42,635 bases of DNA from Candidatus Altarchaeales archaeon. Lineage in GTDB: Archaea > Altiarchaeota > Altiarchaeia > IMC4 > QMZM01. The stretch spans positions 1-42,635 of the forward strand of contig JAHEXG010000007.1 of the NCBI GenBank assembly GCA_023252215.1, in the 5' to 3' direction. The position numbers were made by a program, and so were the translations under genes. Under the pieces are notes generated by a model. The model worked only from the letters and a program-made list of their open reading frames with translations, was not told the origin of the DNA and made no database searches. Shown in pieces: positions 18,113-35,498 of the stretch (position 1 is the first letter of the stretch; every line of letters begins with the position of its first letter).

Positions 18113-19342
18113 GAACGACAAGAAGAACCAGTATACTAAAGTATTCGCTATCGTCAGAGGTATCCCGATCCGCGCATAATCCCAAAAGGTCAACGTCTCT
18201 CCCTGCTTCTCCGCGTTCTGGATTATTATGATATTACTCGCCGCGCCAAGTATCAGGAGGTTGCCTGCGATCGTGCTGCCGGCCGCAAGAGCTATCATTT
18301 CCTTCGTGCCTGCGCCCGCGTTCTGGAGCATCGGCATGTACAACGCTACAAGGGGCACGTTGGAGATAAGCTGGCTGAGGAGGACGCCGATTATGAGTAT
18401 TGCAGGAATAGAATCAATTGATATATGAGAGCTGCTTATCAGGCCCTGGAAGAAATCTGCATCCCAGACGCTTTGCATGAGAACGAACATGGAAGCAAAG
18501 AATATGAGCGTGCTCCAATCCGTCTTGCGCAGTAGCTCCATTCTCCTGCCGCTGAACAATAGTATCGGCAAGGCCCCGGCCAGCGCTATGTAGGTCAGGC
18601 GGAAACCGGAGGCGTCGCCCAAGTAGACTGCCCCCATTTTGAGTAGTATCATAACCCCTATCAGTATCAGCGAAGCCCTTGAAAGACGGGCCAAACGAGC
18701 ATCGGACAGAGAGTCCTTTGCATGCACGAGAGGTATTTTGTGAAAATGTTCCCAGTAAAAAAACCTGAGCAGGAAATACGCAAGCAGGAGATTTATGACC
18801 GTGGGAACGAGCAGGTACGAAAAAAAGGAGGTGAATGGATCGGCCATGTTTCCGTTGACTGCGATAAGCAGGTTCTGCGGATTGCCGATGGGGCTAACAA
18901 CGCTTCCGAGGGTTACTGCAAATGCGAGCGCAAGGAGCATCATCTTCGCCGGAAGCTTGTGCGACCTGGCGAGCGCCAGCATCACGGGCGTCCCGATTAT
19001 CGCAAGGGAGTCGTTCATGAGAAAAGCCGATGCAGCGCCTATGCCAAATAGGACGCAGATTATGAGCGAGTCTACGCTGCCAGCTCTCCTGTAGGCCTTA
19101 TATGACAAATGCGACAAGTAGCCGGACATATCCATTGCCGCTCCGACCTCGAACATCCCGAACAAAAAGAAGATAACGTCGAGGTTGACCGCCTGTAGCG
19201 CTCTCAGAGGGGTTATTTCACCCGCCGCCAATACTGACAGCGCGCCTAGCAGCATTATCTGCCATATCTGAAAAGTTACCTTGCCGACCCTGCGCACTGC
19301 TATAAGCAGGAAAACTATCAACAGGACGTATATTGAAAACAT
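18107..19342 (-). CDS. ArsB/NhaD/SLC13-type ion permease
   Basis: Polytopic; FLLFGMFEVGAAMDMSG, FLMNDSLAIIGTPVML, GSVVSPIGNPQNLLIA, LISNVPLVALYMPML, AAGSTIAGNLLILGAASNIIIIQ. Confidence 0.85.
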   Translation of the reverse strand: MFSIYVLLIVFLLIAVRRVGKVTFQIWQIMLLGALSVLAAGEITPLRALQAVNLDVIFFLFGMFEVGAAMDMSGYLSHLSYKAYRRAGSVDSLIICVLFGIGAASAFLMNDSLAIIGTPVMLALARSHKLPAKMMLLALAFAVTLGSVVSPIGNPQNLLIAVNGNMADPFTSFFSYLLVPTVINLLLAYFLLRFFYWEHFHKIPLVHAKDSLSDARLARLSRASLILIGVMILLKMGAVYLGDASGFRLTYIALAGALPILLFSGRRMELLRKTDWSTLIFFASMFVLMQSVWDADFFQGLISSSHISIDSIPAILIIGVLLSQLISNVPLVALYMPMLQNAGAGTKEMIALAAGSTIAGNLLILGAASNIIIIQNAEKQGETLTFWDYARIGIPLTIANTLVYWFFLSFL

Positions 19343-19537: not shown

Positions 19538-21478
19538 ATGTTTTCTTCTCTTTTTCTGACAGGCTTATTTTTTCTGTTTTTCGGCGCGCTTCTGCCGCTG
19601 TTATCCGTGAGAAGCGGAAGGTACGTAAGAACGGCTACCCTGGGTTTTACGGCTGTCGCAGCGGTTCTACTGCTTGTGAGTTCCGCAGGAGTATTCACAG
19701 GGGACGTGCAAGAAGAGATCGCATCATACAATGTGTCAAACGCTTTGTCGTTCTCTTTTGCTTTGGACAGGTTGTCTTCCTTCTTTATTATAGTAATATC
19801 GGTCGTTTCATTCTGCGTCGCCATATACTCCGCCGGATACATCGAGCACGGCGGAGGGAACGCTAAACGTAATATCCTCGCAGGCCTGATGAATGTGTTC
19901 ATCGCATCGATGGTCCTCGTTGTCGCGTCTACCAATACGTTCTCGTTCCTGTTCTTCTGGGAGATAATGTCCCTGGCGTCCTTTTTCCTAGTAATGTACG
20001 ACTACGAGAAAAAAGAGACAAGAAAAGCGGGCATCTTCTATTTTATCATGACCCAGCTTTCCACGGTATTCCTGATGGTCGGATTCCTCGCGCTCTACCA
20101 GGTGAACGGCTCATTCAATATAGAGGCCATGGGTTCCGCAAGCCAGCTAATGACAACGGCGATATTTTTGTCTCTTTTAACGGGATTTTGCATCAAGGCA
20201 GGCGTGATCCCGTTCCACAAATGGCTTCCCTACGCGCACGCTGCAAGCCCTTCGAATATCTCGGCCCTGATGTCCGGGGTGATGATCAAAGTAGCGGTAT
20301 ACGGGCTGATGCGTTTCGTACTCTACGTCCTGGGGCCGGTGGACTGGTGGGGTATACTCATTTTAGTCCTTGGAACCATATCGGCCATATTCGGGATAAT
20401 CTACGCGCTCAAAGAGCACGACATAAAGCGCCTCCTTGCCTACAGCAGCATAGAGAACATCGGGACCATACTGATAGGATTCGGCTTATACATAATATTC
20501 CAGGCACACAATCTACCTGCCATCGCATACCTCGGCCTGGCAGGATCCTTGTTCCATGTATTGAACCACGGAGTATTCAAGAGCCTGCTATTCATGGCCA
20601 CCGGTTCCATAGTCAACGCAACCGATACAAGAGACCTTGAAGGCATGGGAGGCCTCATAAAGAAGATGCCGTACACTGCCGCATTGTTCCTGATAGGCTC
20701 CCTGTCCATCTCCGCTCTTCCCCCGCTCAACGGATTCGTCAGCGAATACATGCTCTTTGCGGCGTTCTTTTCCTCAAACACGCTGGGAGACCCCATGCTG
20801 ACCATCCTCCTGGTACTATGCCTCTCGGTGTTCGCGCTGACAAGCGCCTTTGTCGCAACGTGCTTTGTCAAAGCCTACGGGATAATGTTCCTCGGCCTCC
20901 CGAGAACGGATGCCTGCGCGAACGCAAAAGAAGCCAAAAAACCCATGATACTCGGCCCCGCGATACTCGCGGCGCTATGCATACTGCTGGGCGTGTTCTC
21001 CCCTGCGCTCCTCTCCGCATCAGGCTACGGGACGCTTCCCGTCCCGGACCTGATGCTCGTAGGATCCTTCCTGCTCGCGACATACGCTATCATCTGGGCG
21101 GCGCTGTATCATTCATATCCCAACAAGACGCGCGTTGGAGCGACGTGGGACTGCGGAACCCCCTTGAGCAGCAGGACACAATACACTGCATCCGGTTTCT
21201 CGCAGCCTATTATGAGGATGTTCAAAGCGACTTACAAGACAAAGGAAATCCCTGAAAGAACTTTCTACGACAAGCAGAACAGCCTTTTCAGGAGCGGGGA
21301 AGCAAAGGTCACATTGCTAAAATTCTTCGAAGAATATCTCTATATGCCTGTCGGAAAAAAGGTCATGTCCTTATCGATACGCGTTTCGAGGATGCAGAAC
21401 TGGAACCTTGACACATACATAGCGTACGCGTTCGTAGCAGTCCTCCTGGTCCTGGTCTACGTGGGGTGGCTCATATGA
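19538..21478 (+). CDS. HyfB/NuoL-like membrane subunit of energy-converting hydrogenase-related complex, copy 1
   Basis: KAGVIPFHKWLPYAHAASPSNISALMSGVMIKVAVYGLMR and KEHDIKRLLAYSSIENIG antiporter-like core; operon with hyfCEFGI-like genes. Confidence 0.9.
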   Translation: MFSSLFLTGLFFLFFGALLPLLSVRSGRYVRTATLGFTAVAAVLLLVSSAGVFTGDVQEEIASYNVSNALSFSFALDRLSSFFIIVISVVSFCVAIYSAGYIEHGGGNAKRNILAGLMNVFIASMVLVVASTNTFSFLFFWEIMSLASFFLVMYDYEKKETRKAGIFYFIMTQLSTVFLMVGFLALYQVNGSFNIEAMGSASQLMTTAIFLSLLTGFCIKAGVIPFHKWLPYAHAASPSNISALMSGVMIKVAVYGLMRFVLYVLGPVDWWGILILVLGTISAIFGIIYALKEHDIKRLLAYSSIENIGTILIGFGLYIIFQAHNLPAIAYLGLAGSLFHVLNHGVFKSLLFMATGSIVNATDTRDLEGMGGLIKKMPYTAALFLIGSLSISALPPLNGFVSEYMLFAAFFSSNTLGDPMLTILLVLCLSVFALTSAFVATCFVKAYGIMFLGLPRTDACANAKEAKKPMILGPAILAALCILLGVFSPALLSASGYGTLPVPDLMLVGSFLLATYAIIWAALYHSYPNKTRVGATWDCGTPLSSRTQYTASGFSQPIMRMFKATYKTKEIPERTFYDKQNSLFRSGEAKVTLLKFFEEYLYMPVGKKVMSLSIRVSRMQNWNLDTYIAYAFVAVLLVLVYVGWLI

Positions 21479-22422
21479 ACATAGACGCAAATTACGTCGC
21501 CTACGCCTTCCTGAATACGGCTTTCATCATACTGATATCCCCGCTATTCATGGGAGTTGCAAAGATAGTCAAAGCGCAGGCCCAGGGACGCATAGGACCG
21601 CCGCTCCTGCAACCGTACTATAACCTGCTGAAACTCGCGCAGAAGGAGAGGGTCTATTCAAACAAGTCTTCCGCAATAACAAAGATCACGCCATACATCA
21701 ATATAACGATCATGATAGTAGCCTCACTGGGCATACCCCTCGCGTTTGCTCCTGAAAACTCCGGAGGCTTGGGGAACATAATACTCCTATTGTATCTCCT
21801 TGCTATGGGCAGATTCTTCATGGCAGCCGCCGGCCTGGATGCCGGAAGCACTTTCGGAGGCATGGGAAGCTCAAGAGAGATGAGCATCTCGTCGATAATA
21901 GAGCCGATAACGATAATAGTGTTCGCAGCGCTTGCATTCACCCTGAATACAATGGACATGCACCAGATGTTCCAGACGGCTGCGCAGGAGATGTCTTTCC
22001 TGAACCCGGCCCTGATACTGGTATCCATTCCGCTGTTCATCGTCCTCATAGTGGAAACAGCCCGCGTCCCGGTAGACAACCCGGAGACGCACCTGGAATT
22101 GACGATGATACACGAAACAATGCTGCTGGAATACGCCGGAAGAGACCTGGCATTGATGGAATTATCGCACGCAATAAAACAGACCATGCTCATGGCCATC
22201 CTAATAAACATACTCGTACCCTGGGGCTATGCAAGGGAATTTACGGCACCGGCGGTCATCATCGGAATGCTCCTGTTCCTGGCAAAAGGCATAATACTCG
22301 CAACATTCATCGGACTAACGGAATCATCGATGGCTAAGATGCGCCTATTCGCCCTGCCGAATCTATTCATAATAGCATTCTTCCTCTCAATGCTGACAAT
22401 ACTCCTGGAGGTATTCAGATGA
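21466..22422 (+). CDS. HyfC/NuoH-like membrane subunit, copy 1
   Basis: QGRIGPPLLQPYYNLLKLAQKE and VETARVPVDNPETHLELTMIHETMLLEY. Confidence 0.93.
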   Translation: MAHMNIDANYVAYAFLNTAFIILISPLFMGVAKIVKAQAQGRIGPPLLQPYYNLLKLAQKERVYSNKSSAITKITPYINITIMIVASLGIPLAFAPENSGGLGNIILLLYLLAMGRFFMAAAGLDAGSTFGGMGSSREMSISSIIEPITIIVFAALAFTLNTMDMHQMFQTAAQEMSFLNPALILVSIPLFIVLIVETARVPVDNPETHLELTMIHETMLLEYAGRDLALMELSHAIKQTMLMAILINILVPWGYAREFTAPAVIIGMLLFLAKGIILATFIGLTESSMAKMRLFALPNLFIIAFFLSMLTILLEVFR

Positions 22423-23135
22423 TAACAGCAGCCCTTGCCGAAAGCCTAACGCAGGCGCTCGTCGTCCTGGTACTGATAAGCGGGGCATTCATAGTCACAA
22501 GGAAAGACCTGCTCTCCCTCGTCTCGACATATCAGATGCAGTCCCTGCTACTGGCGGGGGTCGCCCTAAGCCTGTATTCCGTAGACCAAAGCCCCACGCT
22601 CCTGTACCTGGCAGGCCTTACTTTGGTAAGCAAGGTCCTATTGATACCGTACATCATAAAGAGGATACAGCGGAAAATAAACATTTCAAGAGACATGGAA
22701 TTCCACTACGTATCGCCCATAGCCTCAATATTCATCACAATAATCCTCATACTCCTGGTATACGGCGCTTTTTCAAACATACTAAAAGAACTAGCCCTAA
22801 GCAACCTATTCTACCTGGGCGCAGTATTCGGCATATCGCTGACACTAATGGGAATGCTCATAACATTCAGCAGAAAAAAAGTCATCACCAAAATAATAGG
22901 ATACCTCACAATGGAAAACGGAGTCCTGCTATTCAGCCTGTTCATAACAGAACTGCCATTCATAATAGAAGTACTCATACTGGTAGACCTCTTCATGATA
23001 GTGCTGCTGGCAACGATCCTATCCATCGGCATGGATTCTTCCGTAGAAGCCTACCAGGAGAGATTCCACCAATTACACATCGAAGACTTGCAGGAAAAAC
23101 TGCACCTGCACAGAAAGCATAGAGGTGAGAGCTAA
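22419..23135 (+). CDS. HyfE-like (NuoK-related) membrane subunit, copy 1
   Basis: Position between HyfC and HyfF; multi-TM; MGMLITFSRKKVITKIIGYLTMENGVLLFSLFI. Confidence 0.87.
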   Translation: MITAALAESLTQALVVLVLISGAFIVTRKDLLSLVSTYQMQSLLLAGVALSLYSVDQSPTLLYLAGLTLVSKVLLIPYIIKRIQRKINISRDMEFHYVSPIASIFITIILILLVYGAFSNILKELALSNLFYLGAVFGISLTLMGMLITFSRKKVITKIIGYLTMENGVLLFSLFITELPFIIEVLILVDLFMIVLLATILSIGMDSSVEAYQERFHQLHIEDLQEKLHLHRKHRGES

Positions 23136-24582
23136 GATGCAAGCCTTGGAGGCATATCTTGCCTACAGTATGCTGGTACTCGCGGCAACCCTGTTATCCA
23201 GGACGAACCGGGCCATGAATTTGATAGCGCTAACCCACGCCGTATCATGCATCGCGCTCGCCGCATACAGCCTGGGCAACGCGCCAATGCATTACTTTGA
23301 CAATAATTTCCTCATAGATTCCCTGAGCATCTACGAATTTTTCATCACGGGAATAATATTCTTTTTCGCACTCGTATACGCAGGAGCACATTTAGAAAGA
23401 CTCGTAGAACTCGGATTACTTGAAAAGAGGAACACAAAACTGTACTATCTGTCATTGAACTGCCTGCTCATCTTCACCATCCTCTCTTTTGCGTCAAACA
23501 ACCTCGCAGTCTTCTGGATATTCGTAGAACTGACAACGTTCTTCACCGCGTTCCTGATAGCAATACTAAACAGCAAGAAGAACATCGACGCCTCGCTTAA
23601 ATACATATTCGTAACCTCCACCGCAATGCTTTTCGCATTCATCGGGATAATACTGATATTCGCGCTAAGCGAAAGCGCCCTGGGCAAGGGCACGTTGAAC
23701 TGGGACGAACTACTGGCAAACGCCAGATCCTTCTCGCCCGGCTTCCTCGCAGCTTCGTTCGCATTCATCTTCATCGGATTCTCGGCAAAATCAGGAGTCG
23801 CCCCATTCCACACGCCTCTGCCACACGCATACTCAAAAGCCCCCTCGGCGGTAAGCACAATAATATCGGCAGTCATGCTAAACCTGGGAATATACGGAAT
23901 ACTGCGAACCTACGCAGTCGTAAGGCAGACCAGCGCCGCTCCTGCGGCATCCAACCTGCTCCTGGCCTTCGGCCTCCTGTCCATATTCGTAGCGACATTC
24001 AGCATGCTACACCAGAGGAACGTAAAAAAACTAGTCGCATTCTCCAGCACAGAACACTCAGGCCTCATGCTGATAGGACTCGCAATAGGAACGCCCCTTG
24101 CAGTCTTCTGGGTCCTCTACCACATGCTCGCCCATGCCCTGACAAAGGCCGTACTATTCCTCTCGACAGGCATACTCCAAAGACAATACAACAGCAACAA
24201 CGCAGGAAAAATAATAAACGCATTCAAGCTCCAGCCTCTCGCATCGATAGGCCTCATACTCGGCGGCGCAGCTATCCTCGGAATACCCCCGTTCGTCATA
24301 TTCATATCCAAATACTCCATACTAGTACAACTTGCAGGATACTCCCTGCCGCTCTTATTGCTCGTCCTGCTGCTCCTACTGTTAGCTTCGGCCGCATTCT
24401 TAAGCCTCGGAACAGAGATATTCACACACACGCAAGACACCCGGATAGAAAGATACAATGCGCCAAAAAGGATGACCGCCCCCATCGTTGCCCTCATAAT
24501 CCTTGTCTTTGTCCTGGGAATATACTTCCCAAGCGAGATATATGCCCTCCTGACCAAGATAGTTTCAGACCTAAAGTTTTAA
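23125..24582 (+). CDS. HyfF/NuoN-like membrane subunit, copy 1
   Basis: AKSGVAPFHTPLPHAYSKAPSAVSTIISAVMLN, HQRNVKKLVAFSSTEHSGLMLIG. Confidence 0.9.
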   Translation: MRAKMQALEAYLAYSMLVLAATLLSRTNRAMNLIALTHAVSCIALAAYSLGNAPMHYFDNNFLIDSLSIYEFFITGIIFFFALVYAGAHLERLVELGLLEKRNTKLYYLSLNCLLIFTILSFASNNLAVFWIFVELTTFFTAFLIAILNSKKNIDASLKYIFVTSTAMLFAFIGIILIFALSESALGKGTLNWDELLANARSFSPGFLAASFAFIFIGFSAKSGVAPFHTPLPHAYSKAPSAVSTIISAVMLNLGIYGILRTYAVVRQTSAAPAASNLLLAFGLLSIFVATFSMLHQRNVKKLVAFSSTEHSGLMLIGLAIGTPLAVFWVLYHMLAHALTKAVLFLSTGILQRQYNSNNAGKIINAFKLQPLASIGLILGGAAILGIPPFVIFISKYSILVQLAGYSLPLLLLVLLLLLLASAAFLSLGTEIFTHTQDTRIERYNAPKRMTAPIVALIILVFVLGIYFPSEIYALLTKIVSDLKF

Positions 24583-24589
24583 TTAAGAA

Positions 24590-26167
24590 ATGGAAAACGC
24601 CATAAACGAAATACTGCACGCAACCCGCGGACGGATCCTGGAAAGCGACATCGTTACAGGTAAAAACAGGGAACTATACGTCCACCTGGAAGAAAAAGAC
24701 TTCGAGACCGTGATAAACTTCCTATCGGAACACAATTTTGAACTCGCAGGACTATTCTGCGCCGAAGACTTTGACGGCCATGAGGGCCACATGCTCTTCT
24801 ACGCATTCGAGAAAAAAGGAAACGAATGGATAACCATATTCACACTGCCCCTGAGAATGAAACGGGCAATGTCCATAGCCCTGACATACCCCTCGGCATC
24901 GTGGTACCAAAGAGAGATAACGGACGGCTTCGGGGTAACGTTCGCAGAATCATTCGACGAAAGAAGACTCTTCCTCCACGAAACATACCCCGAAGACTTC
25001 CACCCACTGCAAAAAACATTCAAAAACAAGGAAATAAAACTAGACGCAGAGACGAACCCATCGCTTGCCTATGAATTCAAAAAAGTTTCCGGCGAAGGAG
25101 TCTACGAAATACCAGTAGGACCAGTCCACGCAGGAATAATCGAACCAGGACACTTCAGATTCAGCGTAATAGGAGAAACAATATACAACCTGGAAATCAG
25201 GATGTTCTACAAACACAGGGGAATAGAAAAACTCGCAGAAGGAAAAACCCCGGCAGAATGCGTAAAAATAGCAGAATCCATAAGCGGAGACGAGACAGTG
25301 GCAAACGCCGTCGCATACTGCACAGCGGTCGAAAAGATCTCCGGCATAGAAGTGCCGCTCAGGGCGGAACATCTGCGCACCGCCTATTTGGAGATGGAAC
25401 GCATATACTCGCTCCTGGGAGACCTCGCAGGAATGTGCATAGACGTTGCATTCCCTGTAGGAGCAAGCCCTTTCTTTGTGCTCCGGGAAGAAGTACTAAG
25501 GCAAAATAAGGCGCTCACAGGCTCACGTTTCATGAAGGACACAATAGCCATAGGAGGATTAAAGAAAGACGCACCCAAGGGCACACTGGACGCCTTACAG
25601 GCATTCCTCGACGACCTGAGAGACGGACTAAAAGACGCAGTCTCAGACGTATTAGCCAGCACGTCCACGATAGACCGATTCCAGACAACAGGCGTAGTGC
25701 GCAAGGAACTGATAGCCCCCCTGCACATCACAGGACCAATAGCACGCGCATCAGGGACACTTACGGATACCAGGATAGACCACCCATACGGGCTCTACGA
25801 TAAAATAAGACCCGCCCCAAGGATATTCGAAGCAGGAGACGTACTGGCAAGATTCGAAACAAAGGCATCAGAAGTACTGGACTGCGCAAGGATGATAGAC
25901 GAAGCAGTCACAGGACTACGCCACGGAGAGATCCTAACCAAAGGAGACATAAAAGACGGCTACGCCATCGCTCCGATAGAATCCGCAAGAGGCCAAAGCA
26001 TGCACTGGGCCTATATCAAGAACGGATTGATCGACAGATACAAGATACGCACGGCATCATTCTGCAACTGGCAGGCAATAGAACACGCAGTCATAGGAAA
26101 CATCGTACCCGACTTCCCGCTCATAAACAAGAGCATGAACCTGTCATACGCAGGAACGGACCTGTGA
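24590..26167 (+). CDS. HyfG-like (NuoC/NuoD fusion) subunit lacking NiFe ligands (Ehr-type)
   Basis: NuoC-like N-terminus (SWYQREITDGFGVTFAESFDERRLFLHETYPEDFHPLQK) fused to NuoD-like part; AESISGDETVANAVAYCTAVEKISGIEVP replaces RxCGxC; ends FPLINKSMNLSYAGTDL instead of DPCxxC. Confidence 0.9.
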   Translation: MENAINEILHATRGRILESDIVTGKNRELYVHLEEKDFETVINFLSEHNFELAGLFCAEDFDGHEGHMLFYAFEKKGNEWITIFTLPLRMKRAMSIALTYPSASWYQREITDGFGVTFAESFDERRLFLHETYPEDFHPLQKTFKNKEIKLDAETNPSLAYEFKKVSGEGVYEIPVGPVHAGIIEPGHFRFSVIGETIYNLEIRMFYKHRGIEKLAEGKTPAECVKIAESISGDETVANAVAYCTAVEKISGIEVPLRAEHLRTAYLEMERIYSLLGDLAGMCIDVAFPVGASPFFVLREEVLRQNKALTGSRFMKDTIAIGGLKKDAPKGTLDALQAFLDDLRDGLKDAVSDVLASTSTIDRFQTTGVVRKELIAPLHITGPIARASGTLTDTRIDHPYGLYDKIRPAPRIFEAGDVLARFETKASEVLDCARMIDEAVTGLRHGEILTKGDIKDGYAIAPIESARGQSMHWAYIKNGLIDRYKIRTASFCNWQAIEHAVIGNIVPDFPLINKSMNLSYAGTDL

Positions 26168-26182
26168 CAAAAAAAAGAAAAA

Positions 26183-26704
26183 ATGCAAGACGTATTAACG
26201 AACATATTTTCCAAAAAGGTAACCGAGGACTTCCGGTACAAAGACGAGGAACTCGAAGAGCTCGGGATCCATCTGAAAAAAGAGATAAACACCATCTTCG
26301 GCAGAAGCCTCGCGATACGGGAACTCGACAGCGGAAGCGACAACGCAACAGAGATCGAATTGAACAACCTCGGAACACCCCACTACGACGTCGAAAGGTT
26401 CGGGATAACATTCGTCGCATCCCCAAGACACGCGGACGTGATAGCGATCACCGGGGCAGTGACGCATAACATGGCAAACGCCGTCAGGAAGACATACGAT
26501 GCAGCCCCTAATCCAAAGTTCGTGATCGCCATAGGAGACGACGCATGCGACGGAGGGATATACAAAGGAACGTATGCGGTGCTTGGGGGAGCGGACAAGA
26601 TATTGCCGGTGGATATCAAGATCCCGGGGAATCCGCCGGAGCCCAAAGACATCATTAAAGGGCTGCTGGCGCTGATGAAAGGGATAAGGGAACAGAAAAA
26701 GTAG
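26183..26704 (+). CDS. HyfI/NuoB-like subunit with canonical [4Fe-4S] cysteines replaced
   Basis: LAIRELDSGSDNATEIELNNLGTPHYDVERFGITFVASPRHADVIAITGAVT...VIAIGDDACDGGIYKGTY...VDIKIPGNPPEP aligns to the NuoB/HyfI core. Confidence 0.9.
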   Translation: MQDVLTNIFSKKVTEDFRYKDEELEELGIHLKKEINTIFGRSLAIRELDSGSDNATEIELNNLGTPHYDVERFGITFVASPRHADVIAITGAVTHNMANAVRKTYDAAPNPKFVIAIGDDACDGGIYKGTYAVLGGADKILPVDIKIPGNPPEPKDIIKGLLALMKGIREQKK

Positions 26705-26916: not shown

Positions 26917-27351
26917 ATGGATGAGAGCATATCAGCAATAATTGCCATAATTGGTGTGGTTGTTGGAGCACTTATTACTTGGTTTGTTAGTTATCAGAAT
27001 ATTAAGAAAGACCTACGACTTGAAGCTTTAAAATTTGAATACTCCATTTTTGAAAAGATAAATTCAGAGTACAGTAATATCAGAAAACCCAAAAATGAAA
27101 CAGAACTCATTGATTGTTTATTTGAATCATTTGATCTATTTGATAAAATAAAACCATTCATCAAGGATACTGATAGAGCAAATATCCTTAATATGAAAAA
27201 CAAGATTGATGAACTGATGAATTCAAAAAAATATGATGAAGCAATAAAACTACATCTTCAATTTAAAGAAGAGCTGAAAAAATTGCTTGATGAATTAAGA
27301 TGCAAAAATATAGATATGATTAGGCATGAGTACAAATTATCTCTTCAATGA
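26917..27351 (+). CDS. Hypothetical protein: one N-terminal TM helix plus coiled-coil-like helical region; low-GC accessory gene
   Basis: SAIIAIIGVVVGALITWFVSY TM helix followed by charged helical sequence; locally AT-rich compared with neighbours. Confidence 0.6.
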   Translation: MDESISAIIAIIGVVVGALITWFVSYQNIKKDLRLEALKFEYSIFEKINSEYSNIRKPKNETELIDCLFESFDLFDKIKPFIKDTDRANILNMKNKIDELMNSKKYDEAIKLHLQFKEELKKLLDELRCKNIDMIRHEYKLSLQ

Positions 27352-27415
27352 ACTAAACTCCCCCGTCCTTCGGACATATAGTTTGCTATGAGAATTTATC
27401 GGAACTTAAACACAA
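27350..27415. repeat. Right arm of inverted repeat flanking the 144-aa ORF
   Basis: GAACTAAACTCCCCC (27350-27364) and GAACTTAAACACAA (27402-27415), separated by 37 nt. Confidence 0.85.
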
Positions 27416-27459
27416 CTCTTCGTCGCCTTCGGCTCCTCGTCCTCCTTTATAGTCGGAGA

Positions 27460-27544
27460 ATATAACACAACTTTTAGCGGCTCGGGCTTCGCCCTCGGCC
27501 CAAATTCAGCTTCGCTGAACTTCGCAAAAGTTGGGACGTTATAC
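27460..27544 (+). repeat. attC-like recombination site 1 (85 nt imperfect palindrome)
   Basis: R'' ATATAAC (27460-27466), L'' CAACTTTTAGCG (27468-27479), L' CGCAAAAGTTG (27523-27533), R' GTTATAC (27538-27544). L''/L' pair perfectly except for one extra A in L''. Confidence 0.65.
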
Positions 27545-27576
27545 GCAATTCAAAAAAAACCCTCGACGGACGACGT

Positions 27577-27601
27577 TAACGAAACGTTAACGTTTCCGTT
27601 A
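27577..27601. repeat. Near-perfect palindrome just past the restriction gene stop
   Basis: TAACGAAACGTTAACGTTTCCGTTA: self-complementary except for one unpaired base; contains a 16-bp perfect palindrome GAAACGTTAACGTTTC. Confidence 0.75.
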
Positions 27602-27608
27602 CGCTTCA

Positions 27609-28652
27609 TCAACACTTGAGCAGTTTTTTGAAGACATGCTTCAGGAAGTCCTCTCTTTCTTTTTCTCGAGTAAGAATAGAGGTGAGATTGTAATAGTGCT
27701 TTATTGTTTTGTCCTTCTTTACGCGATCCTCTACTTCTGAAGTTATACAGCTTGCCAAGAATATAGTTATAACACCCGGATTATGTCTTATTGCTTCTTC
27801 AAAGGATTTCTTTGCAGCGCCATACCGTTCCAACGCTCCGGCGGGATCGGTCCCACCTTTCACTTCAATGACTGCTATGGTTGACCCGTCTTTGTCAAGT
27901 AGGGAAATGTCGGGCTCGCTTGAAAAGAGAACTGAACGCTGGTTTTTTAGGTTGAATCCTTTGAACTCTCTGATGCGGTCTAATTGGTCTTCAGCAATCT
28001 CCTTGTCAAACGGTTCAACACTTGAATGATTGTCTCGGAGATGGAAGGCGGTTAATTTACACAGGTCTATCGCCTCATTAATTAAGAGTTTTTGAACGAC
28101 TTTCTCAGCCTCGTCTCCTATTGCATTTCTCCATGATCCGTCTATTTGAGCGCCGGTAGATGCAAACAAGAGACCTTTAATATGCTCATTATTCGGTTTT
28201 TCAAGTGCGCTTTCAATTATCAAGGAGATATGTTCGTTGAACAGTTTTGATAATTCTACAGCTTGTGTCTCGGATAGGTCTTTCTTTTCGCCGTTCTCAA
28301 AAATCATAGTGTGAACCCCGCTTAGATAGCTTACTGATTTTTGGGATAAAGCGGCGACGTTCCGATAATAAGCGGTTAAAACAGGATGTTCCCTTAACAA
28401 TCTTGGATGAGCGAAAACCTGTATAAGGCTTAGATCGGACTTCCGTATCTGTTCCAGGGCTTCTTTGGTTACTCCCCACTCATTGTACTTCGACCAATCA
28501 TACTCCTTTGAGAGAGGTATTAACTTTTGGATCGTCTCCGGAAATCCATAGGTGTTGTACTCATTCAACTTTCGATAAAAGAAAGTCGATCTTAATCGGT
28601 AATTAATCTTGTGTGCTTCGACAAGCAACTGTTTTCGTTCATCCGATTGCAT
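27609..28652 (-). CDS. Type II restriction endonuclease, PD-(D/E)xK (tentatively XcyI-like family)
   Basis: EPDISLLDKDGSTIAVIEVKGGTDPAGALERYGAAKKSFEEA has PD...ExK catalytic spacing; next to DNA methyltransferase. Family assignment tentative. Confidence 0.75.
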   Translation of the reverse strand: MQSDERKQLLVEAHKINYRLRSTFFYRKLNEYNTYGFPETIQKLIPLSKEYDWSKYNEWGVTKEALEQIRKSDLSLIQVFAHPRLLREHPVLTAYYRNVAALSQKSVSYLSGVHTMIFENGEKKDLSETQAVELSKLFNEHISLIIESALEKPNNEHIKGLLFASTGAQIDGSWRNAIGDEAEKVVQKLLINEAIDLCKLTAFHLRDNHSSVEPFDKEIAEDQLDRIREFKGFNLKNQRSVLFSSEPDISLLDKDGSTIAVIEVKGGTDPAGALERYGAAKKSFEEAIRHNPGVITIFLASCITSEVEDRVKKDKTIKHYYNLTSILTREKEREDFLKHVFKKLLKC

Positions 28653-28653
28653 T

Positions 28654-30084
28654 TTATTTTTCCCAGTAGTATACGCACTTGCGTACTTCCTGCCGCCCGT
28701 GTTTACCCATCTGTTGGCTGCTATTACCTTTACCCATTGGAAGTTTATAAATATTTTTAACCGTCAGCCCGCAGTTTGATGCGAATTCTGATAGTATCAG
28801 ATCAACAGGTACAACCTCCCCGGCATATCTTACATTATCGTTGACGTAATATATCCTGCCTCCTTTCTTTAGAACCCTTGCCATTTCCATAATGATAAAG
28901 GCATGCTCATAGAAGTAGTTCTTCACCATCCTATGTATACCGGGGTTGTTCAGATCGTTGCTTTCCTTATAGCTTTTAAGGATTCCTAAAACCTCCTGTA
29001 AAGCACTGTTTGAGTTGAAAATTTCCTCGGCTTTATTGAAGTCATTTAATCGGCCTTTTTCCTTGTATATCTTTTTCAGAAGATCAATTTTATCCTTGTT
29101 TTCGACCGTCGCCGATAACAAACTTTGCCTTAAATCTCTTATTCGGTCTTCATTTATCCCAAGATAAACCAGTTCAAGAGCATAGGTTCTGGTATAATCA
29201 TATCGATTACAATAAGGCGGTGACGATATCACTATATCAAAGGATTCATTTGGGATTTCAGGGAGTATTTCCAAGGATGATTCGGTCTTTAACTCAAGCT
29301 TTACATCCTTTCTCGGCTTAGTGCCAAAGAAACTCATGTTTCGCAGATCATTTACTATCTGATTCAGTTGAGAAAACAGAGCATCATCAAAAGAGTATAC
29401 CTCCCCTTTATCAAACTCTGCCTTGCTCTTTTCAGCTCGGGAATCCCACCTCAGACACTGACCATCCTTGCGAGTATAGCTTATTTTTTCAAGTATGCTG
29501 AAACATGCAAAACTAAATATCTGCCTTAGTTTCTCATCCTTTAGGTTCGCAATATAATTTAAAAATCCGTTAAGTTTTCGCTCATTAACGGTCGAAAATG
29601 CCTTTTCGGTTATCCTGATGTGTTTAAATGAATACTCCGAGTTAGTAGGAAATGTCTCAAAATTTACCTTTCTTAATTCTTTTATTCCATCAAGCAGATA
29701 TTCCAGATCGATTTTTTCCAGAGTTAATTTTGAGGTTAGAACAAAATTTCCAATAGGCATTATTTCAATACCTACAGAATCGTAGCCCAACTCTTTCGCA
29801 CTAAGCAATGTAGTACAAGAACCTGCAAAAGGGTCGAAAACCACTACCCCTTTCTTCTTTGGACACTCCTTTATAAAAAGCTTTACCATGTCAGAGGAAA
29901 AACCTTCTTTATAGCTAAACCAATTATAAATAGGTATCTTCTTGTTAGCTTGGAAACTTACCAACTGTCTATTTAGAGCTTGATTTACCGCAATTATCGG
30001 TTTATATTTCTTTTCCAGTTTATCCCGCTCAAGCTGTGTTTCCTGACCTACACTTCTGTTTGTCCCCATTAGCGCCGGTTCCAT
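28654..30084 (-). CDS. DNA methyltransferase (amino-MTase, TSPPY-type)
   Basis: Motif I VFDPFAGSCTTLLSAKELGYDSVGIEI, then ISSPPYCNRYDYTRTYALELVYLG (motif IV), and ARVLKKGGRIYYVNDNVRY. Confidence 0.9.
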   Translation of the reverse strand: MEPALMGTNRSVGQETQLERDKLEKKYKPIIAVNQALNRQLVSFQANKKIPIYNWFSYKEGFSSDMVKLFIKECPKKKGVVVFDPFAGSCTTLLSAKELGYDSVGIEIMPIGNFVLTSKLTLEKIDLEYLLDGIKELRKVNFETFPTNSEYSFKHIRITEKAFSTVNERKLNGFLNYIANLKDEKLRQIFSFACFSILEKISYTRKDGQCLRWDSRAEKSKAEFDKGEVYSFDDALFSQLNQIVNDLRNMSFFGTKPRKDVKLELKTESSLEILPEIPNESFDIVISSPPYCNRYDYTRTYALELVYLGINEDRIRDLRQSLLSATVENKDKIDLLKKIYKEKGRLNDFNKAEEIFNSNSALQEVLGILKSYKESNDLNNPGIHRMVKNYFYEHAFIIMEMARVLKKGGRIYYVNDNVRYAGEVVPVDLILSEFASNCGLTVKNIYKLPMGKGNSSQQMGKHGRQEVRKCVYYWEK

Positions 30085-30254
30085 GAAATTTTCTAACTAA
30101 TATAATAATATCAACTTATGACTTAAAGCAAAACCATAAGCCCATTTAGATTCGAGCAGATATTAATTAGGCAAGAGCGCAGGAAAACTAAAGAACCACA
30201 CTACGAGGGGGTTCGAACTTCTCGTCGCCTGCGGGCTCCTCGACCTTGCGGCCT

Positions 30255-30339
30255 GCTTAACCGGCTTTTTAACGGTTCGCTCCCTTCAGTAGCTCAGCCC
30301 ATGCCCCGACAGGGCATCGTAAAAAGCCATACGTTATAC
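30255..30339 (+). repeat. attC-like recombination site 2 (85 nt imperfect palindrome)
   Basis: R'' GCTTAAC (30255-30261, fits RYYYAAC), L'' GGCTTTTTAACG (30263-30274), L' CGTAAAAAGCC (30318-30328), R' GTTATAC (30333-30339). One extra A in L''; same spacers (1 and 4 nt) as site 1. Confidence 0.65.
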
Positions 30340-30471
30340 GCAATTCGAAAAACCCCCCGCCCCCTAGGGATATCTAGCCTGCGGAGAGGCTTAATTTGAG
30401 TTTAACCGTATTTTTATTCCTCCACATTATATACTACCTTGTAGGGAGGTTTATAGACGGTTTGTCATAGG

Positions 30472-32412
30472 ATGATAATGTTCACATCGTTATTCTATCT
30501 CGGAATATTTCTTTCGCTGCTCGGCTTCGTTCTGCCTCTGCTGCGGCTGGAAAACAATAGAAAAGCCCATAGGACGTTTTCGTATTCCCTTTCTATATTA
30601 TCCTCGGTTTCTTTTCTTGCATTCTCGGCCCTGGTTTTCCTGAAAAAAGGAGAATATTTGATCCCGGTGTACAGCAACGCGGGCCTGATCGATTTCACGT
30701 TCTACGTAGACCAACTATCCGCTTTCTTCATTGCCGTCATTTCCGTCGTTTCCCTGAGTTCTGCCGTTTATTCCTTCGGGTATGGGGAGCATCTTTCGCA
30801 TGAGAGGAGGAAGGATTATATGGCAAGCCTGTTGAACCTCTTTGCCTTGTCGATGGTCCTGGTTGTGGCGTCGTATAACACTCTTGAGTTCATCTTTTTC
30901 TGGGAACTGCTTTCCATGTCTTCGTTCCTATTCGTCCTCTTTGAGTATGGAAAGCCCGGAACCCGCAAGGCCGGCCTTTATTATTTTATCATGACCCAGT
31001 TGTCGACCATGTTCCTCCTCTTGGGCTTCTTTGGCATCTACGCAAATACCGGTTCCTTCAACATACAGCCTGTTACGTCGCTCCAGAATCTGACCCTTAT
31101 ATTCCTCTCGCTGTTCATCGGCTTCTCCATTAAAGCAGGCGTTGTCCCGTTCCACAAGTGGCTGCCTTACGCCCATCCTGCGGCGCCTTCGAACATTTCC
31201 GCCATGATGTCCGGGGTCATGTTAAAGGTCGCGATATACGGCCTCATGCGTTTTACGTTAACGGTGCTCCCGCAGGAGCGTTGGTGGGGCGTATTGATCC
31301 TTGTGGCCGGAACGGTTTCCGCGATCCTCGGAGTCATATACGCGCTGAAGGAGCACGACATAAAGAGATTGCTGGCGTACCACAGCATCGAGAACATTGG
31401 GATCATCCTCATCGGTTTCGGGTTGTATCTGATATATTCGGCGAACGATCTGAACGAGCTTGCGATCCTTGCGCTTGCCGCCGCATTGTTCCATACGCTG
31501 AATCATGCCTTGTTCAAGAGCCTGTTATTCCTTACCGCGGGTTCGGTTGTCAGCGCAACTGGGAAGCACAACATAGAGGAATACGGCGGGTTGATAAAGA
31601 CGATGCCTTATACTGCGGCCCTGTTCCTCATCGGCGCAGTCTCTATCTCCGGGCTTCCTCCCTTCAACGGTTTCGTCAGCGAACTGATGTTATTCCAGGC
31701 ATTTCTCGGTTCGTATCTCATCCAGGACCCGCTCCTAAAGTCCCTGGTGGTGTTGTGCCTCTCGGGGTTCGCATTGACAAGCGCGCTTGCCGCTGCCTGC
31801 TTCGTAAAAGCGTTCGGGATAACGTTCCTTGCAGTGCCAAGATCAGAGTCCGCACGCGATGCAAAGGAGGTCGGAAAGTGCATGATAGCGGGTGCAGTCA
31901 TACCCGCAGTACTGTGCATTGTTCTGGGTGTCTTTTCCCTGCAGATATTTTCCCTGATGGGGTACCGGACGGATCTGCCGGATATGCTCGTCATCGGCAT
32001 CATTATGTCGTTGTTCTATGCGATAACATACCTGGTCCTGAAGAATACGGCCGCAAACAAAGTACGAGCAGGCGAGACCTGGGGATGCGGCACTCCCCTC
32101 AGCAGCAGGACGGAATATACTGCTTCGGGTTTTTCCCAGCCGATAGTAAGGTTCTTTAAAGACATCTACCAGACCAGAGAAGTAAACGAGCGCAGATTCT
32201 ACGACAAACAAAACACGTTATTCAAGGAGGGCGCAGGAGAGATACATTTAATGAAGTTCTTCGAGGAAAAATTGTATGATCCGGTCGCAAGATCCATAAA
32301 TTATTTATCGATAAAGGTATCGGCGCTCGAAAACTGGAGCCTCGATACCTATGTACTATACGCATTCCTCGCAGTGCTCGCAACCGTCGCCTACGTGGGG
32401 TGGATAGCATGA
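30472..32412 (+). CDS. HyfB/NuoL-like membrane subunit, copy 2
   Basis: Same length (646 aa) and motifs as copy 1 (KAGVVPFHKWLPYAHPAAPSNISAMMSGVMLKVAIYGLMR). Confidence 0.9.
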   Translation: MIMFTSLFYLGIFLSLLGFVLPLLRLENNRKAHRTFSYSLSILSSVSFLAFSALVFLKKGEYLIPVYSNAGLIDFTFYVDQLSAFFIAVISVVSLSSAVYSFGYGEHLSHERRKDYMASLLNLFALSMVLVVASYNTLEFIFFWELLSMSSFLFVLFEYGKPGTRKAGLYYFIMTQLSTMFLLLGFFGIYANTGSFNIQPVTSLQNLTLIFLSLFIGFSIKAGVVPFHKWLPYAHPAAPSNISAMMSGVMLKVAIYGLMRFTLTVLPQERWWGVLILVAGTVSAILGVIYALKEHDIKRLLAYHSIENIGIILIGFGLYLIYSANDLNELAILALAAALFHTLNHALFKSLLFLTAGSVVSATGKHNIEEYGGLIKTMPYTAALFLIGAVSISGLPPFNGFVSELMLFQAFLGSYLIQDPLLKSLVVLCLSGFALTSALAAACFVKAFGITFLAVPRSESARDAKEVGKCMIAGAVIPAVLCIVLGVFSLQIFSLMGYRTDLPDMLVIGIIMSLFYAITYLVLKNTAANKVRAGETWGCGTPLSSRTEYTASGFSQPIVRFFKDIYQTREVNERRFYDKQNTLFKEGAGEIHLMKFFEEKLYDPVARSINYLSIKVSALENWSLDTYVLYAFLAVLATVAYVGWIA

Positions 32413-33350
32413 ACCCGGCCCAAGTCTTATGCATAGCGATTAATGCAGGGCTTATATTGGGTATCTCGCCTTTTTTCATGGGGCTCGTCAAAAAAACAAA
32501 AGCCCTCTGCCAGGGAAGACGTGGTCCGCCGCTCATGCAGCCATATTATAACCTGGCAAAATTATTGAAAAAAGAGAGGGTCTATTCCGGGAATTCGTCC
32601 GTTATCATGAAGGCAACGCCTTACATAAACATGGCGGCGATAACTGCGGCTGCCTTATTCATCCCTGTCGCCTGCATAACAACGCCCGCATACGGCCTTG
32701 GGAACATAATATTATTCCTATATCTGTTGGCGCTTGCAAAATTCTTCATGGCCCTCGCGGGACTGGATGCCGGCAGCACATTCGGAGGCATGTCTAGTTC
32801 CAGGGAGATGAGCATCTCGTCGATAATAGAGCCGATAACGATAGTTGTTTTCGCAGCTCTTGTGTACACGCTCCATACAGTGAACTTTTATGATATGTTC
32901 TCTCAAACAACGATCATGCAGCCATTCTTCCAGCCGGAGCTGCTGTTTATCTCGATCCCTTTATTCATCGTCCTGATAGTAGAGACTGCACGGGTGCCTG
33001 TCGACAATCCCGAAACGCACCTTGAGCTCACGATGGTCCACGAGGGTATGTTACTCGAATACTCTGGAAGGGATCTTGCGTTCATGGAATTTTCGAACTC
33101 GATAAAACAAACGCTTTTCATGGCGGTTTTGATAAATACCATCCTACCCTGGGGCCTCTCTGCGGAATTAACGGCTCCTGCCATCCTGTTCTCTGCTGCG
33201 GCCTTCCTTGTTAAAGGAGCGTTCCTCGCCGTATTGATGGGTTTGTTCGAATCCGCCCAGGCAAAAGTGAGGTTGTTCGCCCTGCCCAGTCTTTTTGCTC
33301 TGGCATTCTTCTTTTCCATACTGACGGTCTGCCTGGAGGTGTTCTCATGA
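32400..33350 (+). CDS. HyfC/NuoH-like membrane subunit, copy 2
   Basis: QGRRGPPLMQPYYNLAKLLKKERVYS and VETARVPVDNPETHLELTMVHEGMLLEY. Confidence 0.93.
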   Translation: MDSMNPAQVLCIAINAGLILGISPFFMGLVKKTKALCQGRRGPPLMQPYYNLAKLLKKERVYSGNSSVIMKATPYINMAAITAAALFIPVACITTPAYGLGNIILFLYLLALAKFFMALAGLDAGSTFGGMSSSREMSISSIIEPITIVVFAALVYTLHTVNFYDMFSQTTIMQPFFQPELLFISIPLFIVLIVETARVPVDNPETHLELTMVHEGMLLEYSGRDLAFMEFSNSIKQTLFMAVLINTILPWGLSAELTAPAILFSAAAFLVKGAFLAVLMGLFESAQAKVRLFALPSLFALAFFFSILTVCLEVFS

Positions 33351-34036
33351 TAGACGCAATTCCCATCCCCGGAATAATCCAGGCCATCCTGGTCCTTATC
33401 ATGATAACCGGCGCGTTGATAGTTACAAGAAAAGACCTGTTATCTCTTCTCTCCATGTACAGGCTGCAGTCTCTGCTCCTCATGTTCCTGGCCCTGGTAT
33501 TATACGCGGAAAGCGGAAACTACGTCCTCCTGCAGATGGCGGTTCTTACGCTTGCAAGCAAGGTCCTTTTGATACCTTACATCATAAGGAGGATGCAGAA
33601 GGAGATAAACATCTCGAAGGACATAAGCTTCCATTATATCTCCCCGGCTTACTCGTTATTCATCACCGTAGCGCTCATATTCTTTTCGTATTATTCCCTC
33701 TCAAAGACGCTCAACGAGCTTACGGACAACAAATTATTCTATCTCGGAGCCGTGTTCGGCATATCCCTGGCCCTGATGGGGATGATGGTGACGTTCAGCA
33801 GGAAGAAGATAGTCACGAAGACCATCGGCTACCTGATGATGGAGAACGGCGCATTGATATTTTCCATCTTCATAACCGAGCTTCCGTTCCTCATCGAGGT
33901 ACTCATAATAATAGACCTCGTGATACTCGTCCTGCTCGCGGCGATACTCGCAGTAGGGATGGACTCCTCCATCGAGGAATTCCAGGCAAAGCTCGAAAGG
34001 ATAAAGCACCCTGCAAGGAACGGGGGGACTCACTAA
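33347..34036 (+). CDS. HyfE-like membrane subunit, copy 2
   Basis: Parallels copy 1: ITGALIVTRKDLLSLLSMYRLQSLLL and MGMMVTFSRKKIVTKTIGYLMMENGALIFSIFI. Confidence 0.87.
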   Translation: MIDAIPIPGIIQAILVLIMITGALIVTRKDLLSLLSMYRLQSLLLMFLALVLYAESGNYVLLQMAVLTLASKVLLIPYIIRRMQKEINISKDISFHYISPAYSLFITVALIFFSYYSLSKTLNELTDNKLFYLGAVFGISLALMGMMVTFSRKKIVTKTIGYLMMENGALIFSIFITELPFLIEVLIIIDLVILVLLAAILAVGMDSSIEEFQAKLERIKHPARNGGTH

Positions 34037-34037
34037 G

Positions 34038-35498
34038 ATGGCGCTCATAGAATACGCATTGTTCGCGTTGGCGGTGATCTGCCTCACGGCATTGACAAAG
34101 TCCCACAGGCTGATGAGCGTATTATCGCTTATCCATGTCCTGTCCTGTTTCCTTCTGATATATTCGGTCCTATCAACGCCTGTTTTCCCGAAATACTATA
34201 TCGACGAAAACTTTATGATAGACTACCTGAGCGTCTACGAGATACTGATAGCATCAACGGTTTTCCTGCTTGTCGTCATTTACCGAAAAGACTACCTGGA
34301 AAACCTGCTGGCACGGGGGTTCTTAAACAAAAATAATCTGGCACTCGTCTATGCCGCGATGAATTCGCTGCTATTAGTCATCATATTGTCGTTTTCATCC
34401 AACAACCTTGCACTGCTCTGGATATTCGCAGAGCTGACTACGTTATTTTCAGCCCTCATGATAGCGGTCATGAATTCGCAGAAGAACATAGACGCGGCAT
34501 TAAAATACGTGTTCATTAGTTCGACTGTGATGGTGTTCACATTCATAGGCCTGGTGCTGCTGTTCACGGAAACTGAAAAAACCCTCGGCGCAGGCACCCT
34601 TAACTGGAGTGCATTGATGGAGAATGCAAAAAACCTGGACCCGCACGTCCTCATCACAGCATACGCATTCATCTTCCTGGGATTCGCGGCCAAAGCGGGG
34701 ATAGCGCCGTTCCACACGGCCCTGCCGCATGCATACTCCAAGGCGCCTTCGTCTGTGAGCACGGTACTGTCGGCAGTAGTGCTCAACATAGGATTATTCG
34801 CAATACTGAGGATATACTCGATAATGCGGGAGACTGGTTCGGCGGCGGCAGCCTCGAACATACTCTTATTCTACGGGATGCTGAGCATCGTCATAGGCTC
34901 GCTTAGCATGCTGCATCAGAAGAATACAAGAAAATTAATAGCATTCTCAAGCGTGGAAAACAGCGGCCTCATGCTCATAGGGATAGGCATAAGCACCCCG
35001 GCGGCGCTGTTCTGGGTGCTGCTACATACGCTCGCATATTCTCTGACGAAAGCCTCCCTCTTCCTGTCAACGGGGATACTGCACAATCAATACCTCAGCA
35101 ACAAAGTAGAGAACATAAAAGCCGCCTTACAGGTCCAGCCCTTCGCATCTGCGGCGCTGATCATCGGGACCGCGGCGATAATCGGGATACCTCCCTTCCT
35201 GCCGTTCACGACAAAATTCTCTATCCTCGCAGAGATCGCAAAATATTCTGTCTTCCTGCTCATACCGGTGCTCGGATTCATACTCATCACGTACGCGGGT
35301 TTCGCCGTGGTACTGACCGAGGCATTCACCAGAGATTCAGAAGAGGAAAAACCCGGGGACCTGAAGAAATACCGCGCGCCCCTTGGATTGAAGGCGCCTA
35401 TAGTGCTCCTATTGCTCGTTATACTGTTCCTGGGGCTCTATACGCCAAAGGAATTGATCGACCTGATCTGGAATATAACGAGAACGCTGTATAGGTAG
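34038..35498 (+). CDS. HyfF/NuoN-like membrane subunit, copy 2
   Basis: AKAGIAPFHTALPHAYSKAPSSVSTVLSAVVLN, HQKNTRKLIAFSSVENSGLMLIG. Confidence 0.9.
   Translation: MALIEYALFALAVICLTALTKSHRLMSVLSLIHVLSCFLLIYSVLSTPVFPKYYIDENFMIDYLSVYEILIASTVFLLVVIYRKDYLENLLARGFLNKNNLALVYAAMNSLLLVIILSFSSNNLALLWIFAELTTLFSALMIAVMNSQKNIDAALKYVFISSTVMVFTFIGLVLLFTETEKTLGAGTLNWSALMENAKNLDPHVLITAYAFIFLGFAAKAGIAPFHTALPHAYSKAPSSVSTVLSAVVLNIGLFAILRIYSIMRETGSAAAASNILLFYGMLSIVIGSLSMLHQKNTRKLIAFSSVENSGLMLIGIGISTPAALFWVLLHTLAYSLTKASLFLSTGILHNQYLSNKVENIKAALQVQPFASAALIIGTAAIIGIPPFLPFTTKFSILAEIAKYSVFLLIPVLGFILITYAGFAVVLTEAFTRDSEEEKPGDLKKYRAPLGLKAPIVLLLLVILFLGLYTPKELIDLIWNITRTLYR

Follow-up and report, generated by a model that had tools for sequence, protein, structure and literature searches.

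A hydrogenase-shaped complex, HyfBCEFGI, is encoded with no canonical redox centre left in a 42,635-nucleotide stretch of DNA from a Candidatus Altarchaeales archaeon (contig JAHEXG010000007.1; hereafter, the window), and the same replacement of metal ligands is conserved in orthologous operons of other archaea and of bacteria. This agrees with the original prediction of a soluble arm without a recognisable redox cofactor. We put at about even the chance that HyfBCEFGI is a redox-free ion translocator built on a hydrogenase chassis and useful to the gradient of ATP synthase. Slightly more tentative is the broader suggestion of a widespread branch of the superfamily, in which a complete hydrogenase-shaped complex without a redox centre would exchange ions, or act as their gate, for the ATP synthase gradient.

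A small subunit without its cluster ligands

The operon hyfB-C-E-F-G-I occupies positions 19538-26704, and its last gene, hyfI (EhrS/NuoB-like small subunit, 173 aa), lies at 26183-26704 on the forward strand. The region first singled out (26323-26640) takes in the ligand-bearing part but falls short of the whole gene. Both a profile match (PF01058, 3.6e-26) and the predicted fold place HyfI in the NuoB/HyfI family. Its in-frame motifs read GSDNATEIE, GDDACDGG and PGNPP and, together with alignments, bear out the predicted exchange of four cysteines (C to D, C to T, C to D and C to N). The former [4Fe-4S] ligand positions are D53 (26339-26341) and T56 (26348-26350), which fall on the CxxC pair of Cys-bearing relatives, D120 (26540-26542, after D119 in the segment 26537-26548) and N150 (26630-26632, in PGNPP), the latter two standing at cysteine positions in alignments to human/bovine NDUFS7/NuoB (PDB). 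The proximal ligands of a group 4 [NiFe] hydrogenase are replaced here by D/T/D/N. Turning TGY into any of the four codons (GAC, ACA, GAC and AAT) takes a minimum of two base changes, and the substitutions therefore do not reflect miscalling.

The cysteine that remains, C122 (26546-26548), had been read as a ligand shifted by two residues. That reading is wrong: Cys-bearing sisters have both cysteines (GACACDGG in L177 and others), C122 sits beside the ligand cysteine in them, and only the ligand cysteine has been lost. By these alignments, C122 is the ancestral neighbour of a lost ligand rather than a displaced one.

The AlphaFold model of HyfI (pLDDT 87.5, pTM 0.80) has a predicted NuoB-type fold that is retained despite the substitutions. 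Foldseek superposes it on MbhJ (6cfw_J; TMt 0.88, rmsd 2.3) and pairs it with B subunits of complex I as well, the E values being about 1e-13 to 5e-15. The loop that carries D53 is of low confidence, with residues 54-56 at pLDDT under 50, so the model does not establish the pocket geometry. The HyfI part likewise has a pLDDT under 50 in a read-through HyfG-HyfI fusion (TGA read as Gly).

The large subunit and the membrane arm

The fused NuoC-NuoD or HycE-like large subunit, HyfG (EhrL, 525 aa; PF00329 and PF00346), is encoded just upstream (24590-26167, forward strand), and its best PDB match is the formate hydrogenlyase subunit HycE (7z0s_E, 3e-67). In alignment with NiFe-bearing relatives, SGDE replaces CGxC and LSYAG replaces LCYxC. 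All four NiFe cysteines are exchanged, as had been claimed: S232 (25283-25285) and E235 (25292-25294) occupy the first former CxxC, S519 (26144-26146) and G522 (26153-26155) the second, and neither CxxC motif expected of a group 4 [NiFe] large subunit is left. These four residues are invariant or nearly so across the family, and D234 and N239 likewise. Still invariant is R210 of the HRGxE motif (25217-25219). In complex I this arginine lies 3.7 angstrom from cluster N2, and complex I without functional N2 assembles normally with no quinone reduction (PMC8042128).

The membrane arm is encoded on the same strand by hyfB (EhrA/NuoL-like antiporter-type, 646 aa; 19538-21478; PF00361, 1e-63; above the cut-off for NCBIfam NF006418, ‘hydrogenase membrane subunit’), hyfC (EhrB/NuoH-like, 318 aa; 21466-22422; PF00146, 6e-37), hyfE (EhrC, 238 aa; 22419-23135; NF008556, hydrogenase 4 membrane subunit, 1.5e-17 and below cut-off) and hyfF (EhrD/NuoM-N-like, 485 aa; 23125-24582; NF006427 above cut-off). 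As proposed, it keeps its key charged motifs. Conserved across the family are E142, K220, K228, K251 and K348 of HyfB, E197, E211, E217, E222 and others of HyfC, E135, K222 and K341 of HyfF, and acidic residues of HyfE. The claim that the cluster has no ferredoxin gene also stands, given that no ferredoxin-type ORF occurs in the operon of the window or of its relatives. No MrpE/F/G-like ORF was seen in the window operon.

A second membrane-arm set without hyfG or hyfI follows at 30472-35498 on the forward strand, and consists of hyfB2 (30472-32412), hyfC2 (32400-33350), hyfE2 (33347-34036) and hyfF2 (34038-35498). It is 50-61% identical to the first copy, and the conserved charged residues are the same, except for K301R and H337Y in HyfF2. 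In a genome of the same genus, a superoxide dismutase gene lies closely 3' of hyfI; in the window these two genes are separated by additional DNA (26917-35498), which encodes a restriction endonuclease (27609-28652) and a methyltransferase (28654-30084) as well as the second hyfBCEF set.

Conservation and repeated loss of the ligands

From 85,462 scanned species genomes we obtained 68 orthologous loci at 57-80% identity, which belong to Methanosarcina, Methanoregula, Methanospirillum, Dehalococcoidia, Bathyarchaeota, and records of Woesearchaeota, Aenigmatarchaeota, Thermoplasmatota and Altiarchaeota (Altiarchaeales). D53 is present in 67 of 67 (one locus is truncated), position 120 is D in 66 and E in two, and N150 and C122 are kept in all 68; T, A or P stands at position 56. 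The predicted D/T/D/N pattern is therefore conserved as D, x, D or E, and N. Patterns over DDAC and KIPGN were used in part to pick this set, and because they served as bait we relied on whole-protein searches as an unbiased check. Every orthologue that they returned from roughly 62% identity upward, some 24 in all, has D/x/D/N. Four orthologues at 69-80% identity were found among 61 archaeal genomes, followed by a gap, with Cys-bearing proteins at 46% or below. Orthologues also occur in 11 of 148 Dehalococcoidia genomes and in 8 of 242 genomes of one Woesearchaeota order, and every sequence read from them shows the pattern.

For hyfI, the median dN/dS is about 0.09 and the highest value 0.34 (144 pairs). 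Sequencing error, chimera or pseudogenisation, to which we assign a negligible probability, can be rejected, since at least two base changes separate each site from cysteine, dN/dS is low, and D/x/D/N recurs in dozens of independent assemblies, isolates among them. On this sequence evidence, the cluster-less HyfI is neither an error nor a product of gene decay.

Operon structure is conserved as well. All five partner genes lie 5' of hyfI on the same strand in 41 of the 42 loci with enough flanking sequence, and hyfI is linked to hyfG in 60 of 61. The exception is the Altiarchaeales genome IMC4, where hyfBCEFG and hyfI are at separate loci (L162 and L039, respectively). The detached hyfI is near a transposase-like gene, yet is intact and 70% identical.

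In a tree of 79 NuoB-type domains built from 130 columns with the ligand columns removed, the deeper forks of which are poorly resolved, the D/x/D/N proteins form one clade (support 99/94). Its sister is an Ehr-type protein (L153) with four cysteines. In Chloroflexota, the cysteines were lost on two other, separate lineages. The loci L154, L155 and L163-L168 (genomes G161, G079, G246, G327, G299, G231, G400 and G320) have D/x/E/D or similar at the proximal ligand positions, and L172 (G220) has D/V/A/T, a separate loss next to Cys-bearing sisters. The L155 small subunit has an N-terminal ferredoxin domain, as does the L154 sequence. Where the large subunit of the L154-type clusters is readable, both NiFe CxxC motifs are kept, giving a NiFe site without a proximal cluster. 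As read from these sequences, the tree shows that the small-subunit cluster was lost at least three times independently, once beside an intact NiFe site; retention of the latter in Chloroflexota indicates that the two metal sites were lost independently of each other. The first cysteine became D or E in every loss.

Relationship to known complexes

By gene content, HyfBCEFGI is an Ehr complex of the ehrABCDLS type. The A-B-C-D-L-S group 4 hydrogenase-like subunits are encoded in one operon, and the large subunit lacks the NiFe cysteines, as S232, E235, S519 and G522 attest. The Ehr of Methanospirillum hungatei has the same six-subunit set without NiFe ligands, and a locus from an M. hungatei genome (L106) encodes a D/x/D/N small subunit. 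We found no paper in the literature on the lost small-subunit cluster; a 2013 survey in BBA, which reportedly defined Ehr broadly, may mention it. The M. hungatei genes Mhun_1817-1822 were named ehrABCDLS, with ferredoxin reduction inferred as the function (PMC4704411), and the lack of NiFe cysteines in this complex was stated in 2009 (PMC2686161). The missing NiFe cysteines are thus already known, and the clade-wide conservation, the repeated losses and the ATP synthase linkage described below go beyond the original prediction. With the small-subunit [4Fe-4S] ligands also lost, no path for electrons is visible that would allow the inferred ferredoxin reduction. The Ehr relative at L153, unlike HyfI, has a small subunit with four cysteines, which makes HyfI a variant of Ehr and does not exclude it from the group.

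Formate hydrogenlyase/Hyf, a group 4 [NiFe] enzyme (HycE/HycG, 7z0s), has the closest solved relative of HyfG, membrane subunits of the same kinds and the same fold. HyfBCEFGI differs from it in having no NiFe site, proximal cluster or HycB/HycF-type ferredoxin subunits, and its operon has no formate dehydrogenase gene; the ferredoxin-type electron-transfer subunits of group 4 [NiFe] hydrogenases in general have no counterpart there. Mbh of Pyrococcus furiosus, onto whose MbhJ the HyfI model superposes, is set apart by its redox centres and its Mrp-type E/F/G subunits, both of which the hyf operon lacks. Homologous subunits (NuoB/NuoCD/NuoH/NuoK/NuoLMN) and the HRGxE arginine by the N2 site are shared with respiratory complex I, but the N2 ligands are replaced in HyfI and there are no NADH or FeS modules. 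Mrp Na+/H+ antiporters are redox-free members of the complex I superfamily, and what HyfBCEFGI is proposed to share with them is the way of working, through antiporter subunits of the complex I type and with no redox centre. HyfBCEFGI is not an Mrp member: Mrp has no counterparts of HyfC, HyfG and HyfI, which the operon encodes in place of a full MrpA-G set.

The cluster-less HyfI family is carried by the Dehalococcoidia genomes G121 and G085, among others, and DET1570-1575 of Dehalococcoides are, going by locus order, presumably of the same family as HyfBCEFGI. DET1570 is annotated as HycG of the group 4 ‘Hyc’ hydrogenase (PMC5102406).

Genomic neighborhood and ATP synthase

In one woesearchaeal genome (G071), the operon is inside an A-type ATP synthase operon, in the order I, C, F, A, B, hyfBCEFGI, atpD; hyfBCEFGI starts 26 bp after atpB, and atpD follows hyfI by 15 bp. 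In a second genome of the same order (G527), hyfBCEFGI is directly behind atpI-E-C-F-A-B-D on the same strand. The linkage is confined to these two genomes of a single order. Two cases are not many, but their arrangements differ, which makes a single inherited accident an improbable source of the linkage.

Other neighbors are more local. When the genes flanking the 68 loci were clustered, only lineage-limited ones came out, including carbonic anhydrase, FocA-type transporter, P-type ATPase and GNAT-like genes, and we reject the idea of one universal redox partner nearby. Ten Methanomicrobiales loci (L080, L092, L107 and others) have a beta-carbonic anhydrase gene upstream of hyfB (PF00484 in L092), a neighbor limited to this one order. 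In Methanospirillum, FocA-type transporter and Fdh genes are downstream of the operon, the nearby Fdh genes being on the opposite strand. A divergent permease gene of the CitMHS/DASS superfamily (18107-19342, reverse strand; PF03600, 1.6e-45; weak TIGR00785) is upstream of hyfB in the window, and a CitMHS-type permease is also beside hyfB in L045, from the same genus, and in L206, from a genome of the Woesearchaeota order. A radical SAM protein encoded near the operon (16916-18112) is 49% identical to one in woesearchaeal L104 (749-1867). Farther upstream, 7069-11592 encodes a predicted secreted protein of 1507 aa, which appears by eye to join a thermolysin-type protease to a papain-type protease domain.

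Possible function of the complex

So, what might a hydrogenase without metal centres do? The loss of redox ligands, the strong conservation and the placement in ATP synthase operons together suggest that ions are probably moved without redox chemistry. Of the roles suggested in the original prediction, we favour ion movement that does without redox. On this reading HyfBCEFGI, a six-subunit member of the Ehr (formate hydrogenlyase-like) branch of the complex I/group 4 hydrogenase superfamily, has been stripped of its metal centres and has kept its membrane arm. The antiporter-type HyfB and HyfF, with HyfC and HyfE, may form a secondary H+/Na+ exchanger or a gated H+ conductor, and HyfG-HyfI may be a cap that holds and gates this arm. 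If the native protein has no cofactor, the pocket of D53, D120 and N150, opposite R210 of HyfG, probably makes up for the negative charge that went with the cluster; alternatively, it may bind a redox-inert ligand or a cation. The task of the complex may be ion homeostasis, or support of the gradient on which the A-type ATP synthase runs. Some observations weigh against ion translocation. The operon lacks the MrpE/F/G-like subunits that form the Na+ path of Mbh and Mrp; and at both former active sites the substitutions are invariant, which points to an unnamed ligand or chemistry.

The main rival is redox work via a non-canonical centre, which we consider unlikely. The centre could be a mononuclear metal or an unusual cluster at D53/D119/D120/C122/N150, or an organic carrier (F420, flavin, methanophenazine or a thiol) in the HyfG-HyfI cleft. 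D53, D120, N150 and C122 vary little or not at all, which goes beyond the needs of charge replacement alone, and E235, D234, S232, S519 and N239 of HyfG are also invariant. Formate dehydrogenase and formate transporter genes near the operon in some Methanomicrobiales, and the link of Ehr to formate in other bacteria (PMC6349859, PMC7894505), would fit redox work, but an electron-transfer subunit is never in the operon, the second ligand position can be T, A, V or P, no neighbor gene is common to most phyla and the Fdh genes close by run in the opposite direction. Electrons could instead come from an unlinked intact NuoB/ferredoxin module that is swapped for HyfG-HyfI or works with it, leaving the complex redox-active. 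Cys-bearing NuoB homologues do occur in the window genome and in many others. The unlinked intact NuoB sought in the window genome was found on another contig (C90), where it belongs to a separate Ech-type operon that supplies its partners, among them a CGxC large subunit; a further PF01058 protein (contig C28) is of the soluble-hydrogenase type. In five genomes of 0.7-1.2 Mb (G071, G489, G491, G492 and G496), the cluster-less HyfI is the sole PF01058 protein; these are metagenome assemblies of unstated completeness, in which single absences are weak and five together carry weight. Given the separate Ech-type operon and these five genomes, and with hyfI strongly conserved and so consistently linked to hyfG, assembly with an unlinked NuoB appears unlikely, and we hold a redox-active complex of this kind to be improbable.

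Embedding in ATP synthase operons would also fit a regulatory or structural partner of ATP synthase or of the membrane that does little transport, and a complex driven by something other than redox, for example CO2/bicarbonate chemistry, would fit the beta-carbonic anhydrase genes upstream of hyfB in Methanomicrobiales. CO2-hydrating relatives of complex I are known (NDH-1MS and DAB). A structural role would not need the conserved proton-path residues of the membrane arm, however, and the carbonic anhydrase neighbor does not extend beyond its order; we rate these possibilities as less probable than a non-canonical centre, and more so than an unlinked module.

Should HyfBCEFGI indeed be a redox-free ion translocator, a quinone/hydrogenase module can persist with no role other than gating a membrane arm, by conformation or electrostatics. 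It has long been asked by what means the soluble arm of complex I powers ion pumping at a distance in the membrane. Here nature provides the same membrane arm together with a soluble arm that is conserved but apparently cofactor-free, and so a test of what the former is capable of in the absence of electron transfer. The finding also corrects the annotation of operons in methanogens and dehalogenating bacteria that are called hydrogenases or ferredoxin-reducing Ehr, labels that distort metabolic models of these organisms.
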